From NCBI GenBank assembly GCA_009773205.1, contig WPAE01000006.1:62001-126000 (forward strand): 64,000 nt of DNA, read 5' to 3'. Shown here in pieces: positions 51,568 to 52,300 of this stretch. The notes under the pieces are model-generated. The model was not told where the DNA came from. It saw only the letters and a list, made by a program, of their open reading frames with translations, and ran no database searches. Position 1 is the first letter of the stretch. Every line of letters begins with the position of its first letter. The position numbers and the translations under genes were made by a program. Origin of the DNA: Ignavibacteria bacterium (GTDB lineage Bacteria; Bacteroidota; Ignavibacteria; Ignavibacteriales; Melioribacteraceae).

Positions 51568-51584
51568 TTGAGAATTGGGAATTG
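51564..51584. repeat. AT-rich flank repeat, left side of the four-helix-bundle locus
   Basis: TTAATTGAGAATTGGGAATTG overlaps the SDR stop and is the approximate inverted counterpart of CAATTCTAAATTCTCC at 52272-52287 on the far side of the locus. GGAATGGAGAATTG (51647-51660) repeats the motif after the GC-rich island. Confidence 0.4.
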
Positions 51585-51650
51585 ACCCGCTTTCTGCCTC
51601 GTCTTGCGTCTTCGGCAAGGCGGGCGACTCGCGTCCAGCGAGGCGAGGAA
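51584..51650. repeat. GC-rich dispersed intergenic repeat copy (inverted)
   Basis: The reverse complement reads CCCGCCTTGCCG through GGCAGAAAGCGGGTC, matching the framework at 5485-5518 and 13950-13981. A further GCGAGGCGAGG extends it. GC-content is far above the neighbouring AT-rich sequence, and it interrupts the AT-rich flank repeat, as if inserted. Confidence 0.5.
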
Positions 51651-51665
51651 TGGAGAATTGCAAAA

Positions 51666-52255
51666 ATGAAAGTATTTGAGAAGAATGCTGATTATGGTAA
51701 TCCGATTTTAGAAAAGAGTTTTAGATTTAGTGTAAGAATTGTAAAATTCTATCTACTTAGAATCAAAAATGAGTATCATTTAAAAGATATATTAAACCCA
51801 AAAAATTCATTAGAAATGAATTTTTTGCCGAAGGCCGATAGTAAGATGTTGTTTCATAACGTCTTACTATCGGGGTTAACCCCGACAAGCATGTAAGATT
51901 TTAGTAAGTGTTGAAAATTGAGAATTTCGACATAAGCTATTTACTCTAAATGACTTAATGCTTGTCGGCCCAAAGGGCAAATTTTCCTAACGGAAAATTT
52001 GGGTTAAAACAACTGGTAAGATGTGGAACTTCGATTGGCGCTAATGTAACTGAATCGCAAGAGGCTTCTTCAAAAAAAGATTTTATAAATAAACTTAGCA
52101 TTGCGTTAAAAGAAGCTCGCGAATGCGAATATTGGTTGAAATTATTGAAGGAGACAGAAGTTGTAAACGAAAAAGAGTTTTTAAGCCTGATAAACGATTG
52201 TGATGAATTAATACGTTTATTAATTGTTATAATCAAACGATGCAAACAAATTTAA
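51666..52255 (+). pseudogene. Four-helix-bundle protein gene split by a palindrome-rich insertion
   Basis: The N-terminal part (51666-51785, 40 codons) reads ILEKSFRFSVRIVKFY; the C-terminal part (52004-52255) reads KQLVRCGTSIGANVTESQ, then KKDFINKLSIALKEARE and KEFLSLINDCDELIRLL. Together these are the TIGR02436/S23 four-helix-bundle family, whose members also sit in 23S rRNA intervening sequences. The two parts lie in different frames, separated by about 224 bp of hairpin-forming DNA. TTAAAA stands at both junctions (51780-51785 and 52004-52009) and is codon-aligned as Leu-Lys in each part, so removal of one copy plus the insert rebuilds a 121-aa protein of normal length. As it stands the gene is disrupted. 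The C-terminal part could only be translated from a weak alternative start. Confidence 0.8.
51786..52009. mobile_element. Palindrome-packed insertion (about 224 bp) with flanking TTAAAA
   Basis: Hairpins visible: AAAAAATTCAT/ATGAATTTTTT (51800-51826), CCGATAGTAAGA/TCTTACTATCGG (51835-51873), the 16-bp palindrome TCGGGGTTAACCCCGA (51870-51885), CCGACAAGCAT/ATGCTTGTCGG (51882-51892 and 51958-51968), and AAATTTTCC/GGAAAATTT (51979-52000). Near the ends TTAAACCCAAA (51792-51802) mirrors TTTGGGTTAAAA (51998-52009). No transposase is encoded, so it would be non-autonomous. Exact ends are uncertain: it could start at 51786 or 51792. Confidence 0.6.
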
Positions 52256-52288
52256 TACTCAATTTAATACTCAATTCTAAATTCTCCA
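52251..52288. repeat. Tandem 12-mer and AT-rich flank repeat, right side of the four-helix-bundle locus
   Basis: TTTAATACTCAA is repeated twice head to tail (52251-52262, 52263-52274), followed by TTCTAAATTCTCC, the inverted counterpart of GAGAATT motifs at 51570 and 51653. The next gene starts at 52301. Confidence 0.55.
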
Positions 52289-52300
52289 TTATCAATTGCC

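Follow-up and report, generated by a model that had tools for sequence, protein, structure and literature searches.

A miniature inverted-repeat element with a conserved multi-hairpin fold and a probable IS1380-family partner interrupts a four-helix-bundle gene in an Ignavibacteria bacterium

Families of miniature inverted-repeat transposable elements (MITEs) are usually defined by their ends, and the insertion sequences (ISs) of the IS1380 family are characterized by CC-type ends, duplications of 4–5 bp and a transposase of about 440 aa. For two members of this family, ISEcp1 and IS1247, a duplication of 5 bp is described in the consulted portions of PMC2887853 and PMC3281130, respectively. 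The IS1380 transposases have been described as prokaryotic and distantly related to piggyBac, for which CCC/GGG are the usual first three bases (passages of PMC10140906). Bacterial MITEs, such as TIMEs and the Correia elements, are short, non-coding and multicopy, with IS-like terminal repeats, according to the sections of PMC4133298 at hand. Then, could a MITE be the partner of an IS1380-family transposase? The portions consulted of PMC4133298, PMC3281130 and PMC9208149 describe no IS1380-derived MITE, and our search for literature on miniature inverted-repeat elements in Ignavibacteria found none.

Here, we describe an element that represents a new MITE family, which is a known kind of element, with a probable IS1380 partnership. 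It resembles the IS1380 ISs in its CC-starting terminal repeats and in the 5-bp duplication described for ISEcp1 and IS1247, but with a length of about 210 bp it carries no transposase. It shares with other bacterial MITEs all the features listed above, whereas TIMEs are tied to Tn3 and this element probably to IS1380. It begins like piggyBac, which in contrast duplicates the 4-bp TTAA and resides in eukaryotic hosts, while the target here is a 5-bp NTNAN. What sets it apart from MITE families known by their ends is a covarying multi-helix fold kept across genera.

The window, that is, the whole stretch of 64,000 nucleotides analyzed, contains a four-helix-bundle gene (PF05635/TIGR02436, 23S rRNA IVP-like) at 51666–52255 on the forward strand, which is broken by a hairpin-rich non-coding stretch. 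The insert is 207 bp long, occupies 51797–52003 (forward strand) and reads CCCAAA...TTTGGG; its boundaries follow from 75 paired copies and a natural empty site, which are described below. It is bracketed by a 5-bp target duplication, TTAAA, with one copy at 51792–51796 and the other at 52004–52008, as the flanks of the paired copies and the empty site indicate. The 3′ part of the gene (52009–52255, forward strand) matches PF05635 with E 1.3e-22 and TIGR02436 with E 9.3e-26 (query 52004–52252), while the 5′ part (51666–51796, forward strand, including the first TTAAA copy), a half of only 42 aa, has no Pfam or NCBIfam match of its own at E up to 1. The region contains no PF13701-type open reading frame of about 440 aa, for which 207 bp would be too short. 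The insert is a non-coding DNA element, present in many copies, that landed in a four-helix-bundle gene at TTAAA. Removal of 212 bp, namely the element and one TTAAA copy, leaves an open frame of 125 aa. As it stands, the gene is most likely inactivated, because its frame is broken and the remaining open frames enter or begin within the element.

The empty site was sought in six genomes of the same genus, five of which, the window's own genome included, have the neighboring dehydrogenase gene. One sibling genome (G001) shows the order short-chain dehydrogenase, four-helix-bundle gene and FAD protein. The four-helix-bundle gene of this sibling is syntenic and uninterrupted, and across the 3′ part it is 75% identical. 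Consequently, the two halves in the window are parts of one gene. The window sequence without the 212 bp aligns with this orthologue ungapped over the junction. The first-pass annotation, which was made from the letters of this region, had proposed that a palindrome-packed insert without coding sequence splits the gene, and this holds; its statement that both halves match one family stands by synteny for the gene as a whole, but not by any family match of the 5′ half. Its boundaries have to be redrawn. It had placed a 224-bp insert at 51786–52009, with TTAAAA at the junctions and a rejoined protein of 121 aa. The TTAAAA at 51780 falls 12 bp short of the element, and the join there is ruled out by the empty site, since it would drop four residues that read KDIL in the window and KDLL in the sibling. 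The comparison with a paralogue in the window's own genome (L050) gives global scores of 326 for the duplication-based join and 321 for the TTAAAA join, both gapped.

The four-helix-bundle gene is absent from the corresponding place in three other genomes (G003, G004 and G005), and it seems to be gained and lost. Such genes are flanked by short degenerate repeats that face each other in inverted orientation (51568–51660 and 52256–52300 in the window; also loci L050, L051 and L053). Their motif varies from gene to gene, being of the GAGAATTG type in the window and of the GTAGAGTGTAGA type in L050. In G003, repeats of the GAATTGAGAATTG type persist at the corresponding place in the absence of the gene, and in G004 and G005 neither such repeats nor the gene were seen there.

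The window's own genome (G000) is a draft of 4.14 Mb in 476 contigs. It yields at least 60 BLAST pieces of the element, some of which are palindrome self-matches (best 40 of 111 candidates scored). Both ends of the element fit CCCARAWWWTYCRTTRGRAAW with up to two mismatches, that is, they are terminal inverted repeats, and at this tolerance the genome contains 143 terminus matches against one for the control. Another copy-rich genome (G028) yields at least 84 pieces, 40 of them main matches and the rest palindrome self-matches (best 40 of 193 candidates scored). Across the order, the element occurs in at least 16 of 164 genomes, G000 included, and at least 11 of 68 genera at E 1e-5, which are lower bounds as the best four candidates were scored per genome. 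Outside the window, the copies open with CCCAAA or a sequence close to it, and close with TTTGGG or TCTGGG. No useful match was obtained in plasmids or phages, nor in IMG/VR with one exact left-end pattern as the query. The named genomes with the left end are labelled Ignavibacteriales, Melioribacteraceae, Melioribacter roseus, Bacteroidetes and, once, Candidatus Cloacimonadota. The last of these is a MAG (L169) whose sample series (Tobar) is shared with a Melioribacteraceae MAG matching G028, and the left end there may reflect transfer or misbinning.

From 215 loci, 75 paired copies were drawn. They range from 94 to 306 bp, and numerous internal deletions retain both ends. Identical 5-bp flanks are found in 57 of the 74 copies with at least 12 bp of flank on each side, against a mean of 12.1 and a maximum of 20 when the right flanks are shuffled (1000 trials); for the other flank lengths from 2 to 10 bp, the observed count never rises above the highest shuffle. 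Among the 17 copies without an identical 5-mer, 12 are off by one base. The target is N-T-N-A-N, and the 57 duplications are led by TTTAA (16), TTAAA (15) and TTTAT (10). A long open frame is interrupted by three copies, that of the window included, out of the 59 (among the 75) that have 600 bp or more on each side. These copies elsewhere, together with the terminal inverted repeats, the duplication and the empty site, bear out the suggestion of a small mobile element; a lack of homologous copies elsewhere would have spoken against it, and many exist.

The interrupted gene belongs to the S23/IVP protein family known from 23S rRNA intervening sequences, and a link of the insert to that family finds no support: two copies were noticed in such genes, outside any systematic search, namely that of the window and one in G000 (L019/L052). 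The idea that this family tolerates a structured RNA is likewise not supported, given these two cases and the rarity of broken frames. The second gene (L052, contig C398 of G000) carries the MITE near its 3′ end, and also a different palindrome-rich insert ahead of its GTSIG motif.

Which enzyme could move the element? A search with PF13701 at E 0.001 hit 14 of 58 genomes, nine of them above the cut-off; there was nothing at this threshold in G000 or in G028. One match (G031) sits behind the end TTTAT-CCCAAAAAATTCATTAGG, and a wider search with the transposase of this genome gave matches in 28 of 164 genomes. G159 has an intact transposase frame of 441 aa (PF13701, E 6e-47), IS ends that share 15 and 17 of 21 bases with the left end of the MITE, and ATAAT directly repeated at both sides. 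Most IS ends compared in the order read CCCARA...TCATTAG. The left terminal inverted repeat (51797–51817, forward strand, 21 bp compared) is identical at 13–20 of 21 positions to 12 IS1380 ends, which were hand-chosen from the same order, the ends in G068 and G099 being more divergent; the 20 are reached by the end in G123 (L228). The right repeat (51983–52003, reverse strand, 21 bp compared) matches the same ends less well, at 11–17 of 21 with the better of two right-end variants. Many other transposase loci examined in the order show no clear end, and no identical 5-bp flanks were found at the IS loci of G031 (C127), G068 and G099.

In the window's own genome, the last 22–23 residues of the transposase are found at five contig ends with E 0.1–0.5. 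Such weak matches count only because the DNA ends beside them are identical: the IS right end CCCAGAATTGTCATTAGAGAAAA has five exact copies in G000, each less than 100 bp from a contig end and next to the C-terminal codons, and a search with up to three mismatches returns the same five only. They face TTTAA, TTAAA, TTAAA, ATTAC and ATTAA. This is most simply read as a multicopy IS with an unassembled body. In the copy-rich G028, the only trace is one degraded N-terminal transposase fragment (E 8.1e-14, two stops).

The dispersed copies, the 5-bp duplication, the empty site, the match of the left end and the IS ends in the same genome together argue that the element is a MITE, probably mobilized by an IS1380-family transposase. 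An origin of the MITE from a different class of transposase that uses AT-rich targets of 5 bp, for example Tn3, is improbable. Tn3 ends begin with GGGG, as against CCCAAA here, and each of the 12 chosen IS1380 ends agrees with the left end in at least 13 of the 21 positions, one of them in 20. What such an origin does account for is the duplication, since Tn3 elements make 5-bp AT-rich duplications, and TIMEs, as the sections of PMC4133298 at hand report, carry imperfect ends some 38 bp long and duplicate 5 or 6 bp. The element has features of a MITE and ends like those of IS1380-family ISs of the same order, and the new class that the first-pass annotation had considered finds no support.

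The window copy folds far better than its shuffles, the z score being −10.5 for DNA, −9.35 for RNA (0 of 200 shuffles each) and −9.06 for the reverse strand as RNA, in line with the hairpins noticed at first; the RNA fold had been proposed as a check. For an alignment, 18 full-length copies were chosen from nine genomes, seven genera and two families, although two of these (G080a and PFVA) are apparently the same genome, because L265 equals L165. RNAalifold gives 55 pairs, counted as nine helices, two being parts of one long hairpin. Paired cells amount to 95.5% against 89.1 in shuffled alignments, 19 of the 55 pairs have changes on both sides against 9.2, and the covariation score is 0.190 against 0.078; not one of these values is attained in 500 shuffles, and slid structures have at most seven pairs changed on both sides. 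It should be noted that these values come from a structure derived from the sequences tested, and that related rows inflate the counts.

On the forward strand of the window, the structure includes a left-end hairpin at 51800–51826 (12-bp stem; helix 2, with 11 pairs counted and three changed on both sides), followed by a GCC-GAA-GGC mini-hairpin at 51827–51835 (helix 3), a long hairpin with a 17-bp stem at 51836–51872 (helices 4 and 5, with both sides changed in eight of 14 pairs) and a GGG-TTAA-CCC hairpin at 51873–51882 (helix 6). A long-range helix (helix 7, five of eight counted pairs changed on both sides) joins its 5′ arm at 51883–51892, CGACAAGCAT, to its 3′ arm at 51958–51967, ATGCTTGTCG, the arms being 65 bases apart in this copy. 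A GCCC-NNN-GGGC mini-hairpin at 51968–51978 (helix 8) and a right-end hairpin with a 9-bp stem at 51979–52000 (helix 9) come next. A multi-helix fold with strong covariation, kept across seven genera, is an unusual trait of the element. A transposase should need only the ends, yet a non-coding MITE keeps its multi-hairpin fold with compensating changes.

Such a fold might suggest that the insert is transcribed, folded and removed from the mRNA by self-splicing or another RNA-level excision, which would allow the protein to be produced all the same. The predicted RNA fold is indeed strong, the covariation extends over 55 pairs, and taking out 212 bp leaves an open frame. However, the 5-bp duplication is a mark of DNA insertion, 56 of 59 copies leave long open frames unbroken, and Rfam, with E values up to 1 admitted, returns three eukaryotic RNAs (E 0.2–0.76), all below the gathering scores. 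In addition, the stems contain 16 G-U and 16 A-C cells, and because the two are equal they give no hint that selection acts on a single RNA strand, which is weak evidence as the decay of dead copies would yield the same. The self-excising or spliced element raised at first hence finds no support in these data, which show an insertion into DNA, and we regard this explanation as very unlikely. Least likely of all is a REP/REPIN or IS200/IS605-related palindromic repeat moved single-stranded by a tyrosine (Y1) transposase, which would also be short, palindrome-rich, multicopy and mostly harmless to long open frames, but 57 of 74 copies have a 5-bp target duplication, Y1 elements are not known to make one, and the inverted ends match those of a DDE transposon.

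We are therefore left, with high confidence, with a 207-bp non-autonomous MITE that has imperfect terminal inverted repeats, would be moved in trans by an IS1380-family DDE transposase, has likely killed the gene and maintains its fold. From the matching ends and the matching target sites we infer that this transposase may bind the element ends in trans and excise or copy the element, which would then be joined at an AT-rich NTNAN site with 5 bp duplicated, here TTAAA in the four-helix-bundle gene. Precise excision is reported for piggyBac, a distant relative, in the consulted part of PMC7351741, and was not seen for this element. Either selection or copying that acts on single-stranded DNA would maintain the fold. 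The puzzling split gene thus becomes an ordinary event with precise edges, a natural empty site and a likely partner enzyme.

A more tentative proposal, which we think somewhat doubtful, is that the multi-helix fold itself is needed, as single-stranded DNA or cruciform, for the movement or persistence of the element. The mini-hairpins with GAA-type triloops and the equal numbers of G-T and A-C departures would fit such a DNA form. If this were true, what is maintained would be the structure of the DNA, built from modular hairpins that can be exchanged, and the IS1380 transposase would carry it from genus to genus.

Several related repeats were also noticed. GC-rich mini-palindromes of five kinds are present at MITE hairpin positions in 23 of 35 paired copies of G000 (for example, L008, L014 and L122) and in 0 of 40 other copies, and the GCCTGCCYGYNGCAGGCRGGC pattern has 24 matches in G000 against 0 for the control. 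A candidate longer element at C361:33285–34314 proved to be two separate MITEs in the same orientation. Several contigs of G000 end within MITE or IS copies, and repeats of this type therefore limit the assembly. Finally, palindromes of about 28 bp, like CCCAAATTTTCCTAAYGGAAAATTTGGG, lie beside TTAA-like or other AT-rich sequence at four loci (L059, L077, L118 and L119), and look like elements reduced to one self-folded end.
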